A stretch of DNA of 64,000 nt from Ustilaginoidea virens. Its lineage: Eukaryota; Ascomycota; Sordariomycetes; Hypocreales; Clavicipitaceae. The notes beneath the pieces are model-generated. The model was not told where the DNA came from. It ran no database searches and saw only the letters and a program-made list of their open reading frames with translations. Within the stretch, counting starts at the first letter, position 1. Each line of letters starts with the position of its first letter. The stretch is from contig NC_057318.1 in assembly GCF_000687475.1 (NCBI RefSeq), positions 2,046,001-2,110,000 of the forward strand, given 5' to 3'. Positions 1,673 through 51,049 of the stretch are shown piece by piece. The position numbers were made by a program, and so were the translations under genes.

Positions 1673-3516
1673 TAAAGTCTTAGGGGAGGATAAATAAAGA
1701 CCTAGGTTATATATTGGTTATTACTTAATTAGGTAATAGATTAAAAACAGCTTATTCGATTAGGTTAATATAAAAAACCGAATAGATGCCTTATAGGATA
1801 TTAAGCTAGATATTAAGCGGTAATAAGATAGTAATAATAGTATATTTAGTAGAGACCTAATCGAGCTTTTTATATAGGCGGTTCATTTTAATATTCCGGA
1901 GGTTTAATTATACCTAATTACTAACCTAAAAACGTTCGGCTAGGTATTATAAATAATTAGTAGTATCTTACTATTATTATTATATAAAGGCGATAGTAGC
2001 TTAGGCTAATTCCTATCTCTCTTTAAGGTTACTAAAAAAAAAGGCTATATACCCCTTTAGGGTAATTAAGCTTAAGGTTACCTCTAAAGGTAGAGTAATA
2101 ATCGGAATATTAAACCTATTAAGTAGCTAGTTTAGGCTAAACCTAATAATAAATAATATCTAATTATTTAACGCGAGTTAAAATACCGCAAGATGGTATA
2201 GCTAATCGTATTAATTAAAGGAAATTATAATATAGAGGACTGCCTATACCTCTTAGTTTATTCGCTTTATACCGCTATTGGTTTAAGGGTGGTATACTAT
2301 TAATAGAAGTTGCTTAGTCCCGACTAATTTATATAGTATAGACTGAAATTAGCCTATCTAGTCTGAACCTCGATTGCTAATAATCTTCTTAGGGAAGCTA
2401 TAGAAGCGCTATTAGTACTATTAGAAGTATTTTATATAATCTTCTGCTTTTATTAAGTATATAGCCTTAACCTGGATATACTTCAATAAGCGGTCTGTAA
2501 TTACTATAAGAAATCGTGGGTTGGAGGTATTATAGGTAGGAAAATCGGTTATAAAGTCGACTAATATCTATAACTAAAAACGGTTTATAATCGTTAGTAA
2601 TTATAGTAGGCCCTGTCGCAATTAGCAGCTCTTATATACTCTATAGTATTAGTAATTCTAAATATATTTTGCTACTTTAGACGATATATTATTAAAGTAA
2701 TAATCCTATCGCAATAGTTAGAAGGTAGTATTTTTCCCTAGGTGGCCTGCTATAGGCGAGTTATAATAGCGTTAGATCACTATAGTAGTTAAGGGTTTAA
2801 ATAATAGAAGCTATACCTATGCCTGGTAAAGGAGTATATTATATGTATTTAGGGTATAGTTAGTAATTTATTCTTATATTACCACTTCTACTAAAAATCG
2901 TTATTCCCTATTTATAATTGCCGTCTATTAGGCCTAATATATATTATTTTTAGATATCGCTTAATTTTAAATAGCTTAAAGGTAAGAATCGGTAAAGATA
3001 TATAGGCTATAAGATAAGGTGGTCTTTAGGGCTAAAGTTAATCTTATTTTGCCTTCTATTTTATCTATATTAAGTGCTAAAATAGATAGCGGTTTTAAGA
3101 TCTAGCCGATTTATAGTTTTACCTTATCTGCCTTTTATTCCTATCGAAAAAGCGCATTAAGGTATTAGGCTTATAATCCTAGCCTATATTAAAGATAGAA
3201 GTTAAAAAGCGCTAAAGTTTTAGCCTATTAGGCTTATCGCTTAGATATTTCTTATAATCGGGCGAAGTACTTTAGGTTTTTATAGTCGATAAGGATAATA
3301 AAGGAGGAGGCTATTAAATAGAGTTCTACTAATTATGCCTTAAGGCAAAAGATAATAGTAAGGAATTCCTTATTATATATAATATAGTTCTATTCTGTAT
3401 CTAATAAGTAAGCGGAATAATATATAATAGGGTAAAATATACTATCCTCCTTAACCTATAATAGATAGTTATTAAGGGCCGTACTAAAACTATTTGCCTT
3501 AAGGACTATCTCTTTA

Positions 3517-3530
3517 TTAGGGTCCTATTA
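3517..3530. repeat. Target-site duplication of LINE A (left copy)
   Basis: TTAGGGTCCTATTA occurs here and at 10122-10135, exactly flanking LINE A. The uninterrupted site is seen in gypsy-1 near 21057-21073 in reverse complement, which confirms that LINE A landed in a gypsy-2 RNase H region. Confidence 0.9.
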
Positions 3531-4231: not shown

Positions 4232-4345
4232 GGTAATATTAGTAATAGCATTAGTATTAGCAATAGCGGCAGTAGTAGTATTAGCAGCAGTAATAGCAGC
4301 AGCAGCAATAGCTATAGCAATAGTAATAATAATAATAGTAGTAGT
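4232..4345 (+). repeat. Degenerate CAG/AGC trinucleotide tract
   Basis: A run of AGC, AGT, CAG, TAG, AAT and TAA triplets lies near the LINE A 3' end. In the frame that continues into the antisense reading frame it reads CAG/CAA mixed with TAG/TAA. That is what RIP would make of a poly-glutamine (CAG)n tract. Equivalent tracts sit at the same place in LINEs B, D and E. Confidence 0.8.
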
Positions 4346-5060
4346 ATGCCGAAAAAGTCGGTATCTTTAGATAAAAGGGTGGGTACTACCCGCTCCTATT
4401 ATACTAGTGCTACTAACCCTTTATTACTAGCTTAGCAAGCTATAAGGTTGGCCCTATAATCTTTACCTAATACAAGCTAAAGACCCTAAATATTATTACT
4501 ACTCTTAATAAGGTAAAATTTAACTAATCGAACCCTAATCTAATTAGCATTCGAATAATAGTAATATAGTATAGTACCGTATAGGGCCTAGGGCGGTATA
4601 TTTTATATATACTACGGTAGGGAAGACCTATTAACTCTTTAAATAGACTCCTAAGAACTAAGAGTCTATTTATACCCTCCTAAATGCCTAAAAGGTATTA
4701 GCCATAGGGGGGGAGGTATATATAAGGTGCGGGGACTATATAGGATAGGTGTTAATATAGATAGGTCGATAACTATTATGCCCTTTAGTTAAGGGCGTGG
4801 TAAGTATCGATTGCCTATAGTAGGGGGAAGGTAGCGGCGGTAGCAATAATAGTAAGGGGGAGTATCGCTCCTAAGGTGACCTAAGAGGCGCTAAACCTTA
4901 AGGAGCGTAAGGTAGGAGTATTAGAGGGTATCTAGGCCGCCTTAGAGCTATTTATCTCTTAGGGGCAAAAGAGGGCGGTAGAGGGGGAGGGGGAGAGGGG
5001 GGAGAGGGAGGGGGGGCTACTATAGGGGCCGGCGGGGGAGGGGGAAGGGGGGGGAAAAGG
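4240..5060 (+). pseudogene. Antisense reading frame in LINE A 3' region (unidentified)
   Basis: This frame lies on the strand opposite to ORF2, with codons starting at positions equal to 1 modulo 3. It begins in the triplet tract and then reads YAEKVGIF-RQKGGYY, taking TAA as a RIP product of CAA. A VDNYYAL motif follows near 4765, an Ala/Val linker near 4831-4855, then IAPKVT and NLKERKV at 4867-4911, then an acidic Glu/Gly/Arg tail in the G-tract. LINE B aligns to it at the protein level in the same frame (AQAVSDI-QKGKYR, VDNYKAL, SAPRVT, NLKERKV). A further open stretch in another frame (LELIKAVEAKDLVYK, 5240 onward) overlaps the ORF2 C-terminus. I do not recognise the product. A shadow of an unseen sense frame remains possible. 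Confidence 0.5.
4975..5060 (+). repeat. G-rich tract with quadruplex potential
   Basis: About 85 bases are almost pure G and A, with many runs of 3-8 G. Equivalent tracts occur in LINE B (15045-15135), LINE D (50811-50890) and, as C on the plus strand, in LINE E (47083-47175). GG and GA contexts are not RIP targets, so such tracts survive. In sense LINE RNA the tract is C-rich. Confidence 0.8.
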
Positions 5061-5199
5061 GGCTCTAATATTAATATTATAGCTTTAGAGTAGCTAAAAA
5101 TTAATTATATTTATCTGCCTACTATATCTCCTCTCTCCTATATTGGAATATTATTATTAGATATTAGGGGCGGTATTAGGCGGTTAGGGTTGGCTTAAT

Positions 5200-7170
5200 G
5201 CCTCTATAGGGGTAGATCGCTAAAGCGATTAGGCGAGTTAGAACTAATTAAAGCGGTCGAGGCTAAAGATCTAGTATATAAGTTAGCGGGTAAGGCTTAG
5301 TTTATTAAGGGCAATAGAAATCCCTTAGTAGTCTCGGAAGAGGCTTAGGCCGGTCCTATATAGCTATTAGCGCTATCGTTTATATTTTAGGCAAGAGAGG
5401 ATTAGATAATAATAGTCTTTAGGAGCCTTTCTATATCGGTAGAGAGGTAAGGGTATAATAAGGACTTAGCGTTAGTAGAGGAAGGAGTTTAATCTAATCT
5501 TTTCTATATAAAGCTAGGTAAATATAGCCGATTTATATTTAAAGAGGCTATTATAGAGCTGAATTATTATAGCTAAAGAATAGAAGTCTAAGGCCCTTTC
5601 TACCGCTATAGGCCTATATCGCCGCCGTTTTGCTCTTATAGCGGCTTAGTATTTAGACTACCTAATAAGCCACTCTTTTGCCAGGTATTCCTCGGCTATT
5701 AGCTACTATAAGTCGAGTTCTAAGAATAGGATATATATCTAGGGTCCTTTATAATTATTCTACTAATAGCATTAGAGTATTACTATTATTATAATAGAGG
5801 CGTAATTAATTCGCTTAGCTATCCTAATCTTTATTATCCTTTCTAAAAATCGCTAATAGATATAGTTTAGGTATAAATTAATAGGTGGTATAGCTGCCTT
5901 AATTTTAAAGATATCTATCGGTATAGCCTTAAAGGCCTTAATAATAATTTAAAGGCAAGATAATTATTCTATAGTTAGTAATTTTACGATACCTTTCGCT
6001 ATCCTACTAGGGGCAATAGGGGTATACTATACTCTTACGCTAAAGGCGATAGTAGTGTAAATAACCTATATATAGACTAATCGGGCCTCCCTATATTAAT
6101 ATCCCTATATAAAGGCCGCTATCGCTATAAGGGCAAATCGCTACCGCTTAAGCTTTTTAGCTATTTTTATGCGGTATTTATACTACTAAAGTTTTTAGTG
6201 GATTTTAACCCTTAGGAAATAAGCATATTGCTTTAGCTAAATCGTTATAGTCCCGAGTCGGACTAGCGTCTTATCTACCTTATAGGCATATATAAAATAG
6301 ATAAGCTTACTTTTTCCTAAATTAAAATTAAGCCTAGCTTATTTAAACCACTTATTATAGATCGTCTATGCCTTTTCGAGTAGGGTTTAGGTCTCCCCTA
6401 TACTCCTCCTATATACTATAATATTAGTATTATCTATAAACCCTAGGGTAATAATAGAGGCTACCTCTTTAAGCCTTTTATAAAGTAATATAATATAGAC
6501 TAAGAAGAGGATAAGGGAAAAGGGGGACCCTTATAAGACCCTAGTAGTAATAGGTAAGTTATTAGTTAATTTACCCTTAAAATAAATTCGCGTTATATAA
6601 GAGTCGGTAAAGCCGCAGACCTATACTATAATCTATAATAGCAATCCTTTTTCTAAAAGTAGGTAGGTAAATTAAATATAGTTTACTATATTAAAGGCTA
6701 TAGATATATTAAGCTAGAGGAGCGAAGCGATCCTACCGTAATATTATACTATACAAACTATTTCTATAAGAGTACTAAGGGCTATATCTATAGAATAATT
6801 AGCTCTATTTCCTATCTAAAGGTCTAAAAGTAGGTTACCCTCCTTAAAGGCAGTAGTAAGCTAGTGCACTATTATAGCTTTTAGGACTTTATTAGTTAGG
6901 TTAAGTAAAGATATTAGTTTCTAGCCTCTTACTTTAGAGTATTCCTCTAGTTTCTTTCCTAGCTTTTTTAATACGACTATATAGGCCTCCCGGAACTAAG
7001 CCGGGTAATGCCTAATATAGTAAAACTTATTAAGAAGGTAGGTAAAAGTTATAATTAAAAAGGGGCTATATACCTTAAGGAATCCTATAAATAGCCTATC
7101 TAGTCTAAGGGCTTTCTAGCTAGCTATATAGTAAAGGGCGGTATAGACCTCTTTATATATAAATCTTTTA
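5200..7170 (-). pseudogene. LINE A ORF2: reverse transcriptase and C-terminal region
   Basis: On the minus strand, GSPLS-ILFL-YI and then G-FIDN-TNIIV (6416-6446) mark the palm of a non-LTR reverse transcriptase. The FIDN is a RIP-damaged F-A-D-D catalytic box. Upstream is the region equivalent to the LINE fingers, and downstream the KGIAK- and AYK-type region that follows RT in fungal LINEs. The enzyme would copy its own RNA at a nicked target (target-primed reverse transcription). Stops and the lost aspartates rule out activity. No RNase H domain was recognised. Confidence 0.8.
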
Positions 7171-13269: not shown

Positions 13270-13749
13270 CTTAATTACTTTACTATTAGTTATACCAGTT
13301 TTTTACTAATCTTTCTTTAGCCAAAAGCTAATAGGGGTTAAAGTCGGGAAATAGGATATAAGCTAAAGGTCTTTAGTTACCCTTCCTTTATTAGCATTAA
13401 AATATTACCGCTACTACTATTAATATATAATTAATCCTATCGGTTATACCTATTTTAGCTATTCTTTTAAGGAACCGTTAGTAGATATAGTTAAGATAGA
13501 GGTTAATTAGAGGTATAACCGCTTTAGTCTTAAGGGTATCTAGTAGTATAGCCTTAAAGGCCTTAATAATTATATAGAGACAGGCTAACTATTCTATAGC
13601 TAGGGATTTTATAATACTTTTTGCTATCCCTCTAGGGGCGATAAGGATATACTATACCTTTACGCTAAAGGCGATAGAGGTTTAAATAACCTATATATAG
13701 ATTAGACATGCTTCCTAATATTAGCAGCTTTAGGTAGAGGCTGCTATTA
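13270..13749 (-). mobile_element. LINE C fragment (ORF2 region after RT)
   Basis: This minus-strand segment is collinear with 15760-16220 of LINE B, the region downstream of the RT palm (KGIAK, AYKA-type). It continues at 48657 after a 35 kb insertion. The last 16 bases (13734-13749, GTAGAGGCTGCTATTA) are duplicated at 48657-48672, the target site of LINE B. Confidence 0.8.
13734..13749. repeat. Target-site duplication of LINE B (left copy)
   Basis: GTAGAGGCTGCTATTA is repeated exactly at 48657-48672. The two copies bracket LINE B together with all of its nested insertions, about 34.9 kb apart. Confidence 0.9.
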
Positions 13750-14299
13750 TTATTATTATTAAATTACGCTAGAGGCTATTTAGAGCTAAATAACCTATCT
13801 AGTACTTCTATAAAGATAATTCGGAAAAGAAAAACCTAATAGCCGGGAGGAAAACCTTTCCTATATTCTTAATTACTGCTTTTTGTCGCCCTGCAGCGGG
13901 GGCGGCGGGTATCTAGTGCATAAGAGAGTAGGGTATATAACCACTTAGGATTATATCTAGCGGTATTATATAGGAAGAGTGTAAGTAAGAAGTCTTAGAA
14001 TATCGGGTCTGAATCAGTAGTCTTATCGGATAAGAAGTAAAGGGAGGGTAAAGCCAGGGGGGGTAGGGCTAGTAGCGCGCTTGCAATAGGCATATTCTCG
14101 CCAGGCGCGCATCTATAGTAGCCCGGGCGCTTCTCGGTATATATTAATTTTTTAGTCGGAAGAGAAAGTAAGCTAACTCTAAAGGTAGAAATAGGCGGCC
14201 TTAGGCACTACATTAGTATATAGGTTAGCAATACCCCCCGATTTAGTGCCTTTTCTTCTTTTCTTCTTTTCCTCTATAGCGCTAATTTTAAAGTATATA

Positions 14300-15250
14300 A
14301 TAACCCCTTTATCGCGGTATAGAGCCGGTACTAACCCTATTAGTAGAATAGCAGCAGTAGTAGCAATAATAGCAGCAGCAATAATAATAATAATAAGAAT
14401 AATAGTAGTAAGAATAAAGATGCTTAAGCGGTTAGCGATATTAAATAAAAGGGTAAGTATAGATCTTACGCGCGGTAGAACCGCAGCTAATCCTTATATA
14501 ATAGCCTGGCGAACTATATATATAGCCTTATAGGCTATATCTAATGCGCTTAAAGAATCCTAAGTATAGATACCGCAGCTAATAAGGTATAGATTAGGTT
14601 ATACCCGCTTTTTAGCGAGGCTAATATAGGCAGGGACTAATACGGCCTACTATTTTTATACTTTAGCGGGTAAAATATATATACCCTTAGAAAGGACCCC
14701 TAAGAACCGGGTCCTAATATAAAAACTCCTAGATATATAAGAGACTATTACTAGGGGGATAAAGGTGCATTTTCGATTTATATATAGCATAGGTTACCAG
14801 CTAATTATCTTTACCTTTAGGTAGATAACTATAAGGCCCTCTAGTAGAGGGCTAAATAGGCGTCTGCCTTTCGGGGGTATAATTAGGCGGCAGTAGTAGC
14901 AGTAGTAGTAGCGGTAGGGGGCCTTAGCGCTCCTAGGGTAACCTAAAAGTTATTAAACCTTAAAGAAAGAAAGGTTTTTACCTTAGAACGATAGGCCTAC
15001 GCTTAAAAGGATATTACTATATTATTATAGGTTTTCCTAGCCTAAGAGGGGGGGGAGGGGGCTTTAAAAGGGGAATAGACTAAAGATAATAGGGATAAAG
15101 GGGGGAGGGTAATAAAAAAAATAAAAAGGGGGAAAAGAAAGAGGATACCCCTAATACTAAAATAATAACTATCGACTAATTTTAGCCTATAAGGCCTAAA
15201 AGATTTACTTATTCTTAAGGCTCTTTATTCTTATTACGGGATTACTATAA
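14300..15250 (+). pseudogene. Antisense reading frame in LINE B 3' region (unidentified)
   Basis: This is the best-preserved copy of the antisense frame, with codons at positions equal to 1 modulo 3. After a Ser/Asn-rich start (14347-14410) it runs for about 280 codons. Motifs in order are QKGKYRSYARQ, NSLANYIYSL, NKV-IRLYP, SGQNIYTLRKDP, a VDNYKAL box near 14821, an Ala/Val linker, SAPRVT, NLKERKV near 14955-14980, then basic KKIKRGKRKR near 15115. In-frame stops are TAG or TAA only. Copies A and D share the VDNY-AL, ERKV and Q-K-G-x-Y motifs at the same spacing. I do not recognise the family. Helix-rich composition with a basic tail would suit a nucleic-acid-binding protein, but that is inference. 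Confidence 0.55.
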
Positions 15251-17214
15251 ATATTATATAGGGGCTATATAGGGGTATTTAGTAGCTCCTTTATCTATAT
15301 TATATTAGAGGGATTAAGTAAGCTAGAATTAATTAAATCGATTAATATTAAATATTTAGCAGGCGATTATCTATATAAGGTATAATTTATTAAGTGCGAT
15401 AGATATACTATATCGGTCGCGAAATAGGCTAAAGCTAAGACTAGATCTAAGGAGTATACGCTTTTATCTATAGTATTTTAGGCAGGAGAGGATAATATAA
15501 TAGAGGTCTTTTAGGCCTTCCTTATAGTAGTAAAGAGGTAATAGTACTAAGGGTACTTATTAGAGGCAGAAAAAGGAGTTAAAGTCGATTTTTTCTATAT
15601 AGAGTTAGGTAAGTATTGCCAATTTATACTTTTATAGGCCTTTATATAATTAAGTTATTTTTGCTATAGATTAGAAATCTAGTGCCTTTTCAGCCGCTAG
15701 AGTTCTATACTAAAGGCATCTTGCCTTTACTATTGCCTAATTGCTTTATTATCGGTTATATTAGTCTTTTATTAATTGCTTTTTAGCTAAAAGCTAGCTA
15801 AGGTTAGGATTAAAAAATAGTATATAGGCTAAGGGTCTTTAGTAGCCTTTCCTTTATTAGTATCGAAGTATTACCGCTACCGCTATTAATATGTAGTTAA
15901 TCCTATTAGTTATACCTATTTTATCTATTCTTTTTAGGAACTGCTAGCGGATATAATTAAAATAGAGGTTAATTAGGGGCATAACTGCTTTAATCTCAAG
16001 GGTATTTAGCGGTATAGCCTTAAAGGCCTTAGTAATTATATAAAAGCAGGCTGATTATTCTATAGCTAAGGATTTCGCGATACTTTTTGCTACCCCTTTA
16101 AGGGTAATAAGGGTATATTATACCCTTACGCCGAAGGCTATAAAGGTCTAGATAACCTATATATAGACTAAGCATACTTTCCGGTATTAGCAGCCCTAGG
16201 TTAAGGCCGCTATTACCATAAATGCGAATTACTACCGCTTAAATTTCTTTACGATTTTAATATAGTATTCCCTCTATTTTAGCTTATAGTAGATTTCGAC
16301 TCTTAGGAATTTAGTATATTACTTCGGCTAGATTATTACGGTCTTAAGCTCTACCTTAGTTTTATCTGCCTTATATACATAGGTAAAGTAGATAAGCTTA
16401 CTTTTGCTAGGGTTAAAATTAAATCCGGCTTACTTAGACTAGCTATTATAAATAAACTATACTTTCTTAAGTAGCACCCTTACCTCCTCTATATCTCTCC
16501 TATAGGCTATAATGTTTATATTATCGGTAAAGCTAAGTATAATAGTTAAAGCTACCTTTTGCAGCCTCTTATAGAGTAATATAATATAAATAAGGAAGAG
16601 GATAAAAGAGAAGGGGGGACCCTTATAATACGCCAGCGGTAATCGGCAGTTTATCTATAAGCTATCCCTCGAAGTAGATTTATATTATTCGTAAGTCGGT
16701 AAAGCCGTATATTTATACTATAAGCTATAGCAGAAGCCCTTTACTAAGAAGTAGGTAGATAAAGCGGGTATAGTTAATTATATTAAATGCTGCTAATATA
16801 TTTAGTTAGAGGAGTAAGGCGATCCTACTATAGTGCTAAATCGTATATATAATCTCAACTAGTATGCTTAGTGCTATATTAGTTAACTGGGTTGCCTTAT
16901 TACCTAATTAAAGGTCTAGGAGGAGGTTACCCTCTTTAAGGGCAATAGTAAGCCGCCTCGCAATTATAACTTTTATAACCTTCCCTATTAGATTAAGTAG
17001 CGATATTAATCTTTATCCTCCTGCCTTTTAATATTCCTTAGGCCTTTTCCTAGGCTTCTATAGTACTACTACTTTAGCCTCTTAGAATTAAGCCAGATAA
17101 TACCTAATATAGTATATTTCGTTAAAGAGGTATATAAGGGTTTAAACGAGTAGAGGGCTATATACTTTAAGGAATCCTACTAGGAGCCTATCGGGGCCTA
17201 ATGCTTTTTAGCCT

Positions 17215-17219
17215 GCTAT
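17215..17219. repeat. Target-site duplication of copia X (left)
   Basis: GCTAT lies immediately before the left LTR and again at 39343-39347 immediately after the right LTR. Confidence 0.85.
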
Positions 17220-22636: not shown

Positions 22637-23411
22637 TATTAAAATCCTATAGTAGCCTACTAGGCTGCTAGCCTTATGCCCTACTGGCCTACTAACCTTC
22701 TGGCCCTTATACCGCCTCTTAGACTTATGGTAGTATTACCTTAGGCCTTTGCCTTTTACCTTAAGGATTTTCAGTGGATTATTTACTGTATATTAAGTAA
22801 GGTAGGCCTTATTGAAAAAGGTGTGGCATTGCTAAATTAGCGTGGTTGCCTACTAGCGTAGTGGCGGCCTACTAGCGTGGTGTGGCATTGCTAAATTAGC
22901 GTGGTGGCCTACTAGCGTGGTGGCTAGTCCACTAGTGTGGTGGTTAGTCACTAGCGTGGTGGCTAGTTACTAGTGCGGTAACTAGTTACCAGTGCGGTGG
23001 TTAGGGTGGTTGAAAAGGCCCGATATAGTGGGGCTGCTAACGTATTATATATGTGGCAAAGCGAGCATTACGGGGAGCTTTCTTACTGGCTACCTTGGAT
23101 GCCTGGGCCTATCCCTTCTTCGTATATATATAGGATAGCTTTCCCCCTTCTTTCTAGATAGTAGAAGGGTAGCACAATCGAGTCTGTTAATACACTATAT
23201 GCCTCTTAACTCCCACCTTCCCTGCGTTTCTAATTATCTTATATTTGCCTTACCTTTACACTTGCCCTGCTTTATAGCACTTGTATAGTCTTAGGACTTA
23301 GTGAAAAATCTAGTATTTATACTAAGATTAGTTTATAGGTCGCAGATAGTCTTATGCTATCTAGCTAGCTAGTAAGGCTCTGCTTTTATAGTGACCTTGA
23401 GAATTGCAATA
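22637..23411 (+). repeat. 5' LTR of copia-1
   Basis: This 775 bp LTR is paired with 29364-30138. It begins TATTAAAATCC where the right copy has TGTTCAAATCC, a RIP pair of changes, and ends GAATTGCAATA. It contains GTGGTGGC-TACTAGC tandem repeats at about 22826-23010. Confidence 0.92.
22826..23010 (+). repeat. Tandem repeats inside the copia-1 LTR
   Basis: Imperfect units of 18-25 bases of the form TAGCGTGGTGGC(C/T)TACTAG repeat about eight times. The same array is present at 29553-29738 in the right LTR. CpG-containing units are better kept than the flanks. Confidence 0.75.
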
Positions 23412-26214: not shown

Positions 26215-26910
26215 TTAGTATATACGGCTAGGGCATATAGGTATTCAGCTACTTAAAAAGACCTATGCTAATACCCCTAGTCTGCCTAACCTTAATAAGG
26301 TTAAAGATGCTGATTTTCGCTGCCTAGCTTATATCTAGGCTAAGAAGGTTAGAAGACCTTCTAAGGATGCAATACCTAATCCAGCTAAATACCTAGATAT
26401 TATAGAAGGTAATACTTTTGCTATATCACCTATGTTATATAACAAACGACCTGTTGTCCTTATATTAGTAGACAGAAAATCCCGATTCCGCTGGCTTTAC
26501 TTACTGCCTAATAGGGAAGGCACTATTGTTTTTAAAGCATTATAGAGCTTTATACAGAGCCTATAGGTCAGATATAGTAAAACGCCTATTGAATTCCACT
26601 ATAATAGTGGAAATAAAATCAATAAAATGCTTAATAATTGGCTTATTGAATAGGGTATAGCTTTTAATACCTCTTGCCCCTATATTCACGAATAAAACGG
26701 CCTAGCTGAGCGTTCTATTAGGGTTATAGCTAATAGGCTATATGCTACTATGGCCTGGTTAAGGCTACCATCTAACCTCTGGTCTACTGTAATTACTAGC
26801 GTTATTATGCTAGTAAATATAATAGCTATTACTAATAGACCTTCTAGCCCTTATTAGGAGCTACTAAAGGATTACGACCAAATAATACCGGAATACTACC
26901 CTGACCTTAT
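26215..26910 (+). pseudogene. Copia-1 integrase relic
   Basis: YIRLGHIGIQLLKKTY is the worn zinc-binding start. VLILVDRKSRFRWLYLLP holds the first catalytic D. FHYNSGN has N at the second D. NGLAERSIRVI keeps the third residue E in its copia context. The enzyme would insert the cDNA, making the 5 bp duplication seen. Confidence 0.85.
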
Positions 26911-27699
26911 TAACCTTAGGGCTATTGGAGCAGCTATTGAGGTGCTTATACCACACGAAAAGCGTATAAAAAGCCGCAAATTAGCGCCCTATACCGAGTC
27001 TAGTAGGCTCCTTACCACTTTAGGTAATAATACCTACCTAGTCTACCTTCTAAAGAAGAAGGTTATTACTAAAATAACCTTTATTACCTTTATCCACCAA
27101 AATAAAGGTATAGGCCCTATTTCCAGTGGCTTAAAAGGAGACTTTCATAAAGGGCAAAATACAGGTTTAGAGGGGGTATCTAGCAGAGAACCTGCTATTT
27201 TACTAGATGACTTGGAAAGCATCCCTGACCCTACTAACCTTACTAACATTAATAATACTAATGTTATTCTAGATAACCTAAAAAGCGTCCCAGACCCTAC
27301 TAATCTTACTAGTATTACTAATACTAATGCTACTATAGATTACCGTACTATACTATAGTCCCCGGCTACTGTAAAGGATAACCTTATAGATATCCTTACT
27401 AGCCTTACTCCTGCCGACCTTGCTGGCCCTACTGGCCCTGCTGGCCCTACTATACCTACTAGCCCTACCGACCCTATTAGCCCTACCGACTTATTCCCTC
27501 AGGAAGGTAATACCTTATACCACCTAATATGGGATTCCTACTATGCAGCTAAGCATAAGCTAGCTAAAAAGGCCCCTAATAGTACGCCTAATAGCTGGAA
27601 GGATATACTATAATATCCTAAAAAAGAAAAAGACCTTTGGATAAAGGCACTATTTAAGGAATTTAAGCAGCTTTTAGATACTAAAGTCTTCTAATTTAT

Positions 27700-29363: not shown

Positions 29364-30138
29364 TGTTCAAATCCTATAGTAGCCTACTAGGCTGCTAGTC
29401 TTATGCCCTACTGGCCTACTAACCTTCTGGCCCTTATACCGCCTCTTGGACTTATAGTAGTATTACCTTAGGCTTTTGCCTTTTACCTTAAGGATTTTCA
29501 GTAGATTATTTACTGTATATCAAGTAAGGTAGGCCTTATTGAAAAAGGTGTGGCATTGCTAAATTAGCGTGGTTGCCTACTAGCGTAGTGGCGGCCTACT
29601 AGCGTGGTGTGGCATTGCTAAATTAGCGTGGTGGCCTACTAGCGTGGTGGCTAATCTACTAGTATGGTGGTTAGTCACTAGCGTGGTGGCTAATTACTAG
29701 TGCGGTGACTAGTTACTAGTGCGGTGGTTAGGGTGGTTGAAAAGGCCCGATATAGTAGGGCTGCTGATGTATTATATACGTGGCAAAGCGAGCATTACGG
29801 GGAGCTTTCTTACTGGCTACCTTAGATGCCTAGGCCCACCCCTTCTTCGTGTATATATAGGATAGCTTTCCCCCTTCTTTCTAGATAGTAGAAGGGTAGC
29901 ATAATCGAGTCTATTAATGCACTATATGCCTCTTAACTCCTACCTTCCCTGCGTTTCTAGTTATCTTATATTTGCCTTACCTTTACACTTGCCCTGCTTT
30001 ATAGCACTTGTATAGTCTTAGGACTTAGTGAAAAATCTAGTATTTATACTAAGATTAGTTTATAGGTCGCAGACAGTCTTATGCTATCTAGCTAGCTAGT
30101 AAGGCTCTGCTTTTATAGTGACCTTGAGAATTGCAATA
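29364..30138 (+). repeat. 3' LTR of copia-1
   Basis: This 775 bp copy of the 5' LTR keeps the original TG start (TGTTCAAATCC). It differs from its partner at scattered sites, nearly all C/T or G/A. It is followed by the GTTTA duplication. Confidence 0.92.
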
Positions 30139-47000: not shown

Positions 47001-47990
47001 AAAGCATTAGGAATAAGTAAATCTCTTAGGCCTTATAGGCCGAAATTAGTTAATAGTTATTATATTAGCAATAGGGGTATTCTCCCCCCCCTCCCCCCCC
47101 TTGCCCTCCTTACCGCTCTCCCCCCCCTTATCCCTAGTTTGCCCCCCCTCTAAAGCCCCCTCCCCTCCCTCCTAGGCTAGGAAAACCTATAATAATATAG
47201 CGATATCCTCTTAAGTATAGGCTTATCGTTCTAAGATAAGGACCTTCCTCTCTTCGAGGTCTAATATCTTCTAGATTGCCCTAGGAGCGCTAAGGCCCCC
47301 TACCGCTGCTACTGCCGCTACTACTGCTGCCTAGCTATACCCCTAAGAAGCAGACGCCTATTTAGCCCTCTACTAAAAGGCCTTATAGTTATCTACCTAA
47401 AGCCAAAGATAGTTAGCCGGTAACCTATACTATATACGAATCGAAAACGCACCTCTATCCCCCCGGCAATAGTCTCTTATGCATCTAAGAGTTTTTAAAT
47501 TAGGACCCGGTTCCTAGGGGTCCTCTCTAGGGGTATATATATCTTGCCTATAAAGGCGTAAAGATAGTAGGCCGCTCTAGTCCCTACCTATATTAGCCTC
47601 GCTAGAGAGCGGGTATAACCCGGCCTATACCTTATTAACTGCGGCATTAATACTTAGGATCCTCCGAGCGTATTAAATATAGCTCATATAGCTATATATA
47701 TAGTTCTCCGGGCTATTATATAAAAGTTAGTAGCGGTTCTGCAGTGCGTAAGACCTATACTCACCCCCTTATCTAGTATTGCCGACCGTTTAGGCATTAT
47801 TGCTTCTACTACTACTATTCTTATTCTTATTATTATTGTTATAGCTGTTACTATTGCTATCGTTACTACTACTGCTGTTCTGCTAATAGGGTCAGTATCG
47901 GCCCTATACTGCGATAGAGGGGTTATTATATACCTTAGAATTAGCGCTATAAAGGAAAAGAAGAAAAAGAAGAAAAAGTATTAAATTAGG
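46940..47990 (-). pseudogene. Antisense reading frame in LINE E 3' region (unidentified)
   Basis: This is the minus-strand counterpart of the frames in LINEs A, B and D. Motifs include VDNYKAF, ASAS-GYS, an Ala/Val linker, LSAPRAI, LDLEERKVLILER and AYT-EDIAILL-VFLA, then an acidic or G-rich stretch. A triplet tract (47806-47880) lies at its start. Conservation of LDLEERKV against NLKERKV in A and B is at the amino-acid level despite RIP. Product unknown. Confidence 0.5.
47083..47175 (+). repeat. C-rich tract in LINE E 3' region
   Basis: Runs of 6-9 C separated by T or short spacers form the sense-strand equivalent of the G-tracts in LINEs A, B and D. The minus strand could form G-quadruplexes. 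Confidence 0.8.
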
Positions 47991-49319: not shown

Positions 49320-50029
49320 TATTATTAAATTACTCTAGGGGGCTATTCTAAGCTAGAAATGCCTATCTAGTACTCTAGTAGATAATCCGGAAGAGAAAAA
49401 CCCGAGGACCGGGGGGAAAACCCTTCCTACTAGTACAATTATAACAATTAGGAAGTCGGGCCCCTAGGGGGGCCGACGGGTTTCCAGCATATAGGAAGGG
49501 TAGGTATACTACCGCTTAAGATCGTACCTAGCGGTAGTACTAAGAGGAGTGCAAAAGCGATCTAAAAGAATTAGGTCTAGATAAAGGTAGGTCTAATATC
49601 TATAGGAGAGAGGTGGTCTTAAGTCGGTATACTATAAATCGAAAGTAAAATAGAGGTTATATAGGCAGGATAGCGCCGGCTGTATAATATAAGCGCTAGC
49701 TGCGCGGCATATATATTATACGGGGGCATTAGAGTAAGAGTAAGGGAATTTTCTATTATTAGGGCCATATCGGCGGCGGATCGGCTATAGGGGGGGTGCT
49801 TAGTAAAAGGCAAATAGTATTAAATCGGGGGTTAGGGTAAGCTAAATATAAAGAGAGGGCGTAAAGGCCTTTAGTCTAGTAAGGATATAAAAGTATAAAT
49901 GCCCCCCGACTTTTTAATCCCTTTTTCTTCCTTTCTATAAGGCTATTATTTTTTCTATATATAATCTCCTTAAGCCCTATTTTCTAGCACTATAGGGGCG
50001 ATACTAACCTATATGGTAGGGCGGTAATA

Positions 50030-50880
50030 ATAGCAATAGCAGTAGCATTAGCGATAGCAGCAGTAATAGCAATAGCAATAGTAATAGCGGCAGCATTAGT
50101 ATTAGCAGTAAAAGCAATAGCAGTAGTAATAGCAGCAGCTATAGCAGTAGCAATAATAATAATAATAGTAGTATGCCGAAAAAGTTAGTATCTTTAGATA
50201 AAGGGGTAGGTACTATCTGCTCCTACTATACTAGTATTACTAATCTGTTTTTATTAGCCTGGCGAGCTATAGGAATAGCGTTACGATCCTTATTTAATAT
50301 AGGCTAAAGACCCCGACTATTAATACTATTTTTAGTAAGGTAGGACCTAATTAATTGACCTTTAATCTAACCGATATTTAAACGATAGTAATACGGTATA
50401 ATACCATATAGGGCCTAAGGCGGTATATTTCGTATATACTATAGTAGGGAAGACCTATCGATCTTTTAAATAGACTCCTAAGAATTAAGAGTTTATTTAT
50501 ACCCTTTTAGGTACTTAAGAGATATTAGCCGCGGGGGGGGAGGTATATATAAAGTGTAGGGGCTATATAGGGTGGGTACTAATATAGATAGGTCGATAAT
50601 TATTACGCCTTTTAGTTAAAGGTATAGTAGGTATTAACTGCTTACAATAGGGGGAAAGTAGTAATAATAGCAATAGTAGTAAAAGGGAGTATTACTTCTA
50701 GGGTGACTTAAGAGGCGCTAGACCTTAAGGAGTATAAGGTAGAGGCATTAGAGGGCATTTAGGCCGTATTAAAGCTATTTATCTCTTAGGGGTAGAAAAG
50801 GGCGGTAGAGGGGGAGGGGGAGAGGGGGAAGAGGGAGGGGGGGCTACTATAGGGGCCGGTAGGGGAGGGGGAGGGGGGGG
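50030..50880 (+). pseudogene. Antisense reading frame in LINE D 3' region (unidentified)
   Basis: This is collinear with the LINE A frame. VDNYYAF, then YNRGKV, SRVT-EAL, LDLKEYKVEALEG and KRAVEGEGERGKRE are readable in one frame with RIP stops between. The first part lies in a degenerate CAG/AGC tract. The subfamily A/D version ends in an acidic Glu/Gly tail where B/E have a different tail. Confidence 0.5.
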
Positions 50881-51049
50881 AAGAGGGGGGCTTTAATATT
50901 AATATTATAACTTTAGAGTAATAAAAAAATAATTGTATTTATCTGCCTACTATATCTCCTCTCTTTTGTATTAAGTTATTACTATTAGATATTAGGGGCG
51001 GTATTAAGTAATTAGGATCGATCTAGGGCTTTTATAGGGGCGGGTTATT

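Follow-up and report, generated by a model that had tools for sequence, protein, structure and literature searches.

Non-LTR elements are usually described as carrying one or two sense ORFs. In the primate LINE-1 an antisense frame, ORF0, lies in the 5' UTR; it is short and primate-specific and can splice into flanking host exons. Among retroviruses, HTLV-1 encodes a regulatory protein, HBZ, on its antisense strand. Retroviral antisense genes such as HBZ are named in PMC11963269, where plant Retand LTR elements are described as carrying antisense ORFs between pol and the 3' LTR, with a TRP28 domain in 97% of the clusters, and the extra ORFs of retroelements are reviewed in PMC7264820. It has been suggested that the antisense ORFs of Retand, Grande and RIRE2 elements bind DNA or regulate the element (PMC11963269, PMC7264820). 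For the Tad1-LINE-rich genome of the fungus Blumeria hordei, spliced antisense TE transcripts are described as lncRNAs that do not seem to encode meaningful peptides (PMC10648671).

Antisense extra genes of retroelements are thus already known, and what is unusual here is a spliced one in a fungal LINE. The comparison of the copies of a LINE within a 64-kb stretch of DNA (the window) and elsewhere in the host genome points to a conserved, element-borne, spliced antisense gene, a reading to which we give a probability of about 0.87. It resembles ORF0 in being an antisense ORF in a LINE, but it lies at the 3' end and not in the 5' UTR, comprises ~200 codons and has internal introns. The likeness to HBZ is by description only: both are antisense in a retroelement and the element class differs. 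As in Retand, Grande and RIRE2 elements, an extra gene lies antisense to the polymerase, between pol and the 3' end, in most or many family copies (PMC11963269, PMC7264820). However, those are plant LTR elements, mostly with TRP28, and the word 'intron' is absent from both texts, whereas here a fungal LINE is the carrier, three introns interrupt the gene model, and the predicted product, with its six-cysteine cluster, matches no Pfam family, TRP28 included. In contrast to the Blumeria lncRNAs, exons 2 and 3 of the predicted gene appear to be under strong protein-level selection here. Within the open-licence literature our searches turned up no spliced antisense gene for a protein in a LINE; as most subscription journals lie outside it, this is weak evidence of absence.

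The window is a heavily RIPped region with nested LINE copies in a host genome of 37.2 Mb and 8 contigs. Relative to expectation the dinucleotide frequencies in the window are 0.34 for CpA, 0.30 for TpG and 1.65 for TpA. The LINE, which we take to be Tad1-like from the look of the C-terminus of ORF2 and from RIP as a fungal trait (the term serves as a name only), lies on the minus strand according to the orientation of the reverse transcriptase (RT) in copies A and B. The stretch 14300-15250 is thus opposite to the LINE's genes, as the earlier note had stated. The following features define the sense strand and the 3' end of the element:

6297..6914, minus strand: RT of LINE A, which shows the sense strand (PF00078, E 4.5e-4, 20.4 bits, under Pfam's cut-off of 29.6)
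about 17033-16611, minus strand: RT of LINE B (weak Pfam match of 19 bits, under Pfam's cut-off, in a RIPped copy)
15176..17219, minus strand: sense-strand remnant of ORF2 of LINE B (frame, four-fold-site and transversion tests, alignment to a relative)
13745..14419, no strand assigned: LINE 3' end, with the (TAA)n sense tail at ~13745-13760 followed by ~660 nt up to the antisense ATG, in which any promoter and leader of the antisense gene would have to lie

The matches in copies A and B are weak, and the orientation is much clearer in a relative from the same genome, L001 (C3:1952923-1956681). Read in one frame with X at stops, L001 matched PF14529 (E 1.3e-11), PF03372 (E 7.2e-8) and PF00078 (E 1.2e-34), all over the cut-offs, and it aligns to LINE A across residues 2-1079. 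Endonuclease and reverse transcriptase are thus found in one ORF, as in a LINE. The 3' end, too, is that of a LINE: it has no LTR and carries the microsatellite (TAA)n tail, beyond which the flanks differ in the copies compared. A protein search with ORF2 returned three LINE ORF2 proteins of 1183-1334 aa (E 3.7e-24 to 1.7e-10), which carry endonuclease, RT and RNase H domains. On the frames of the LINE copies themselves, the Pfam matches passing E 0.01 were RT only, plus RNase H in a flanking relic. An RNase H-like domain of reverse transcriptase (PF17919, E 3.5e-7) lies at window positions ~3336-3530 on the minus strand, just past the 3' end of LINE A.

When we compared one B-type with five A-type copies, a strong third-position transversion excess was observed in one frame across ~15.02-16.28 kb. 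The four-fold-site strand test pointed to the minus strand for this interval (p 0.025 versus 0.96 for plus), and the frame agrees with that of the RT of copy A, so that we assign it to ORF2. The transversion excess and the best z in the ORF2 frame also mark ~15180-15250 as sense-strand ORF2 coding. A second ORF2 fragment adjoins copy B: 13272-13726 and 15738-16192 repeat each other at a distance of 2466 bp, and another LINE copy may have served as the insertion site of B. Elsewhere in the window the direct repeats 22639-22938 and 29366-29665 are 97% identical, lie 6.7 kb apart and have tandem-repeat content; they are possibly the LTRs of a younger LTR element, and a 166-codon open stretch (26858-27358) lies between them.

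Opposite to ORF2, between its stop and the (TAA)n tail, the predicted antisense gene consists of four exons on the plus strand in the B copy (14420-15179), with counterparts in A, D and E:

14420..14452, plus strand: exon 1 of B, 33 nt, with the ATG at 14420 (alignment to the little-RIPped relative L069)
14453..14504, plus strand: intron 1 of B, 52 nt, GTAAGT...GCTAAT...TAG (alignment to L069; GT and AG in 60/60 copies)
14505..14586, plus strand: exon 2 of B, 82 nt, first half of the cysteine cluster (three Cys positions, Tyr here)
14587..14633, plus strand: intron 2 of B, 47 nt (72 nt in A-type copies)
14634..14764, plus strand: exon 3 of B, 131 nt, second half of the cysteine cluster (three Cys positions, Tyr here)
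14765..14820, plus strand: intron 3 of B, 56 nt (49 nt in A-type copies)
14821..15179, plus strand: exon 4 of B, with the VDNY-AL box, an Ala/Val linker, L-x-E-R-K-V and a low-complexity tail; stop TAA at 15177-15179
4346..5187, plus strand: A copy, exons 4346-4378, 4431-4512, 4585-4715 and 4765 to ~5187 (end of exon 4 approximate)
50173..51015, plus strand: D copy, exons 50173-50205, 50258-50339, 50412-50542 and 50592 to ~51015 (end of exon 4 approximate)
47046..47797, minus strand: E copy, exons 47797-47765, 47712-47631, 47583-47453 and 47396 to ~47046

In B the reading frames are those of 14420 for exon 1, 14505 for exon 2, 14636 for exon 3 and 14821 for exon 4, and exon 4 contains a 1-nt slip near 15097. 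In front of the start codon all four copies show a CAG/CAA-type repeat (TAG/TAA after RIP; 14340-14419, 4237-4340, 50019-50173 and 47810-47876), which is probably leader sequence. Its indels among B-type copies are multiples of three, save one 1-nt deletion in a single copy at 14432, inside exon 1.

The gene model was read from relatives that suffered little from RIP. L001 has a GC content of 0.594 and a TpA/ApT ratio of 1.05, and largely escaped RIP bar about eight in-frame stops in ORF2. Its extension L069 covers the whole 3' region (together G000:C3:1951300-1956681) and exposes the antisense gene and ORF2 side by side in the same genome as the window. In L069 the predicted gene runs from an ATG through 33 nt, an intron of 52, 82 nt, an intron of 47, 131 nt, an intron of 57 and 360 nt ending in TAG. 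The exons sum to 606 nt, a multiple of three, and the introns read GTGAGT...GCTGAC...TAG, GTATAG...GCTGAC...CAG and GTGCGT...GCTGAC...TAG. Two in-frame TAG codons occur in exon 4 of this copy. The predicted gene ends on CTAG, a palindrome whose opposite strand supplies the ORF2 stop; in copy B of the window the ORF2 stop TAG (15176-15178) overlaps the antisense stop TAA (15177-15179). The L001/L069 copy, with GC between ~0.57 and 0.68, adjoins an AT-rich, RIPped flank with a GC content of 0.35, and either arrived after RIP had last acted or was spared by it. Two further relatives were used in the comparisons below: L071 (C4:2978800), which is also little RIPped, and L072 (C2:1081930), an A-type copy with the 72-nt intron 2. 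L071 is a rearranged relic: at ~440-600 exon 4 is interrupted soon after its start, and an inverted piece of the same exon follows.

We then mapped the exon/intron boundaries across the genome. Of the candidates, 40 of 230 B-type and 40 of 176 A-type were scored, and the best 30 of each, including the window's own copy, were taken as loci. All boundaries could be mapped in all 60 copies. Exons 1-3 measure 33/82/131 nt in 28/30 B-type and 30/30 A-type copies, the two exceptions having an exon 1 of 32 nt and an exon 3 of 129 nt, respectively. The introns measure 52/47/56 nt in all B-type and 52/72/49 nt in all A-type copies. The differences of 25 and 7 nt are not multiples of three, and the frame therefore tolerates them only if the introns are spliced out. 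For donors 1-3 we observed GT in 30, 27 and 22 of 30 B-type and in 30, 22 and 27 of 30 A-type copies, the remainder being AT; for acceptors 1-3 we observed AG in 30, 26 and 29 (B) and in 30, 24 and 28 (A), the remainder being AA. The start codon is ATG in 25/30 B-type and 20/30 A-type copies and ATA in the others. Every departure at a splice site or start in the 60 copies is a G-to-A change, the change made by RIP. It counts against the model that all six splice sites are intact in just 16/30 copies of either type.

The antisense gene belongs to the LINE unit in both subfamilies. We compiled 131 exon-3 matches out of 150 listed (154 matches; 150 of 183 candidates scored), excluding 18 matches to exon 2 and one partial match. 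At least 97 of the 131 have an ORF2 end on the opposite strand at a distance of 466-528 nt, in convergent orientation, and none of the 131 listed has a same-strand ORF2 end within 200-1200 nt; for 34 there is no ORF2 partner among the matches listed. Conversely, a gene partner was found for at least 97 of 149 ORF2 ends, taken from 150 listed matches (150 of 263 ORF2 candidates scored). In all 29 A-type comparisons homology extends past the gene and stops in the region of the (TAA)n tail. The same holds for 16 of 29 B-type comparisons; by the criterion used, the other 13 stop earlier, ten of them near 14.1 kb. In the distant LINE L007 we found no trace of the gene within 1057 nt (score 341; 40 shuffles averaged 320 and reached at most 362).

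In a rival reading the gene is a captured passenger, that is, a host gene swept up in antisense orientation by read-through which now hitchhikes, selection having acted on the host copies. Gene transduction by retroelements has been described (PMC7264820). A diverged relative, L070 (G000:C1:5584500-5585000), has the same cysteine cluster and exon-2/3 junction with longer, unrelated introns, and no ORF2 end lies nearby among the matches listed, so that relatives of the gene occur in a different setting. L070 is a candidate host gene or ancestor; it suggests a wider gene family and a possible source of the LINE's copy, the opposite direction being possible as well. However, a passenger is expected to decay between rounds of transposition, whereas both subfamilies keep the gene: the lengths of exons 1-3 are fixed in 58/60 copies, and dN/dS is 0.14 between L069 (B-type) and L072 (A-type). 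The corresponding values are 0.05 for L069-L071 and 0.18 for L071-L072, all three being rough as synonymous sites are near saturation. We regard the passenger as unlikely.

At the codon level, support for the spliced antisense gene is strong in exons 2 and 3. Between L069 and L071 the differences at codon positions 1, 2 and 3 (over exons 1-3 and as much of the beginning of exon 4 as could be aligned) amount to 13/96, 15/95 and 50/94, and the transversions among them to 5, 4 and 22. In the 71 codons compared, 60 residues are identical for L069-L071, 44 for L069-L072 and 42 for L071-L072. Between L069 and L071 the spliced frame of exons 2-3 has a pN/pS of 0.13. The two remaining plus frames have 2.62 and 1.51, two of the minus frames 2.06 and 1.89, and the mirror frame, i.e. 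the minus frame which shares its third positions with the spliced frame, has 0.39. The comparison of L069 with L072 gave 0.32 for the spliced frame, 1.18 and 1.52 for the remaining plus frames, 1.41 and 1.74 for the same two minus frames and 0.61 for the mirror frame. A and B were compared by transversions, which RIP cannot make: in exons 2-3 these affect 20/67 third positions compared to 16/141 first and second positions. Exon 1, with only 33 nt, shows 2, 0 and 2 of 11 for the three positions, and in the tested part of exon 4 there is no third-position excess between A and B (6/56, 5/57 and 6/57 for positions 1, 2 and 3). The evidence for purifying selection on the protein is thus strong in exons 2-3 but no more than moderate in exon 4. 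Once the gene is read as spliced, there is strong support for the claim of the earlier note that two diverged subfamilies retain an antisense protein, with pN/pS of 0.13 and 0.32, fixed exon lengths alongside differing intron lengths, and conserved splice sites.

The introns behave less simply. Between A and B they show 9/46, 4/41 and 12/49 transversions. Between L069 (1282-1651) and L071 (51-420) they differ at 13/52, 7/47 and 11/56 positions (15-25%), compared to 50/94 (53%) at third positions. They look more constrained than synonymous sites, simple neutral drift is no explanation for this, and the observation counts against the gene model. Together with the lack of codon periodicity in exon 4 and with the spliced antisense lncRNAs of Blumeria hordei TEs (PMC10648671), it would fit a non-coding spliced antisense lncRNA acting on the LINE in a regulatory role, through RNA interference or transcription interference, the frame being incidental. 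Such an RNA would carry no coding constraint, yet in exons 2-3 the spliced pN/pS is 0.13 as against 1.5-2.6 in four other frames, and six cysteines stand at identical spacing (CX2CX10CX9CX2CX6C) in L069, the A-type L072 and the diverged L070. We therefore consider a purely non-coding transcript very improbable.

A minus-strand origin of the signal, with ORF2 or other sense-strand coding covering the stretch and the antisense similarity as its shadow, has even less in its favour. The mirror minus frame does rank second-lowest in pN/pS (0.39 and 0.61), and in L069 a minus frame stays open some way past the ORF2 stop. The earlier note had named a convincing sense-strand domain over the stretch as a finding that would refute its reading; ORF2 indeed occupies ~15180-15250 and continues beyond, but not the region of the antisense gene, as ORF2 stops where that gene ends (L069, window B), and for L069-L071 the minus frames of exons 2-3 reach pN/pS values of 0.39, 1.89 and 2.06 against 0.13 for the spliced plus frame. 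This origin is hardly credible.

What remains is the form in which the antisense protein had been proposed, about 280 codons in one frame. We scored the similarity of each frame against a shuffle of the differences, with 60 random A x B pairs per block. The single antisense frame of the earlier note was the best frame in 14792-15100 (z 2.08), but in 14417-14792 it fell below chance (mean z -0.65) and was beaten by another plus frame (z 2.29). The frame with the best z switches between the blocks, which suggests a frame change: splicing shifts the frame between exons, and the single frame is right only for exon 4. One continuous frame from a Q-K-G-x-Y start to a basic B tail thus deserves practically no weight, since, exon 4 apart, it crosses introns, meets stops in L069, owes its tail to the slip and is contrary to the behaviour of the exon and intron lengths. 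The Q-K-G-x-Y start is exon 1 and intron 1 read in the wrong frame, and the basic tail KKIKRGKRKR is an artefact of the 1-nt slip near 15097: of the remaining B-type copies (29), 17 are longer there by 1 nt, 9 are shorter by 8 nt, which gives the same frame, and 3 show neither change. The tail is acidic in L069 and mixed, Gly/Glu-rich in E. A homologous plus-sense protein is nonetheless shared by A, B, D and E, in which the VDNY-AL/AF box, the Ala/Val linker and L-x-E-[RY]-K-V are all present; VDNY-AL and L-x-E-R-K-V do form part of exon 4, where the protein-level evidence is weaker. Several other tests did not separate the frames. No single transversion phase dominates between A and B across 14.42-15.0 kb, the four-fold-site strand test gave nothing clear for the same interval, and transversions within one family are too few to read a phase. 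Counts of fixed stops in six frames over 30 B-type and 30 A-type copies did not discriminate between frames because RIP is saturated.

For the spliced gene, the sequences support a model of four exons and three short introns of fungal type, common to two diverged subfamilies, with exons 2-3 apparently under purifying selection and, in L069 and window B, an end on the palindrome that also ends ORF2. The predicted product in L069 has ~201 residues. A short N-terminus is followed by the six cysteines, VDDYKAL and a linker rich in Ala; a charged stretch containing LDLEERKV then precedes the acidic tail, which is rich in Gly, Glu and Asp. Five of the six cysteines are kept in L071. In the window the cysteine positions read Tyr in 6/6 cases in B and 5/6 in E, which hides the cluster from a reading of the window only. 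In the Zn2Cys6 binuclear cluster of fungal proteins six cysteines bind two zinc ions, and the first half is CX2CX6C. The predicted protein is similar in having six cysteines in two halves, each with CX2C, the second half being CX2CX6C, but its first half is CX2CX10C and no match to PF00172 was listed. No Pfam match of any kind was listed for the spliced product at E 10 (filters drop most matches above 0.1), the protein collection gave no match at E 10 (its coverage of spliced fungal proteins is uncertain), and matches to the PDB were at chance level (best E 0.11). Judged by its pattern, the six-cysteine cluster makes nucleic-acid binding plausible; the RNA-binding, silencing-suppressor and second-strand roles put forward in the earlier note are speculative.

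We propose that, besides its sense genes, the LINE has an antisense transcription unit that converges on ORF2 and lies in the interval separating the stop of ORF2 from the (TAA)n tail. A promoter within the ~660 nt at the LINE 3' end, between the tail and the ATG, would drive an antisense transcript, which would be spliced and translated into a protein of ~200 residues. Its six cysteines would bind zinc, and after them a charged and probably helical stretch would lead into the acidic tail. The introns would outlast rounds of retrotransposition, because the sense RNA of the LINE shows the splice sites only as their reverse complement. The unit may have begun as a convergent neighbour gene that the LINE took up when its transcript read through (3' transduction); such an origin would account for the orientation and the introns as well as for the tail-to-tail layout. 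That the protein is a nucleic-acid- or chromatin-binding accessory factor, helping or regulating the element in transcription, target choice or silencing, is a tentative suggestion that we would sooner doubt than assert. In the fullest version of this scheme a LINE would have its own intron-bearing antisense gene for a cysteine-cluster regulator, and the two opposed units would meet at a shared palindromic stop. The introns would persist as copying is limited to the sense RNA, and the regulator would govern how the element is expressed or targeted, or how it evades silencing. We give the whole scheme somewhat less than even odds.

For the reading of RIPped DNA the locus carries a warning: a frame that is open after RIP need not be the coding one, since RIP turns CAR codons into stops and Cys codons into Tyr. 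The three introns are predicted exactly and are directly testable with RNA. The proposed arrangement would provide a clean logic for an intron-bearing gene living inside a retroelement, and an antisense gene with introns that is under selection in two subfamilies suggests that the element needs, or needed, an accessory protein.
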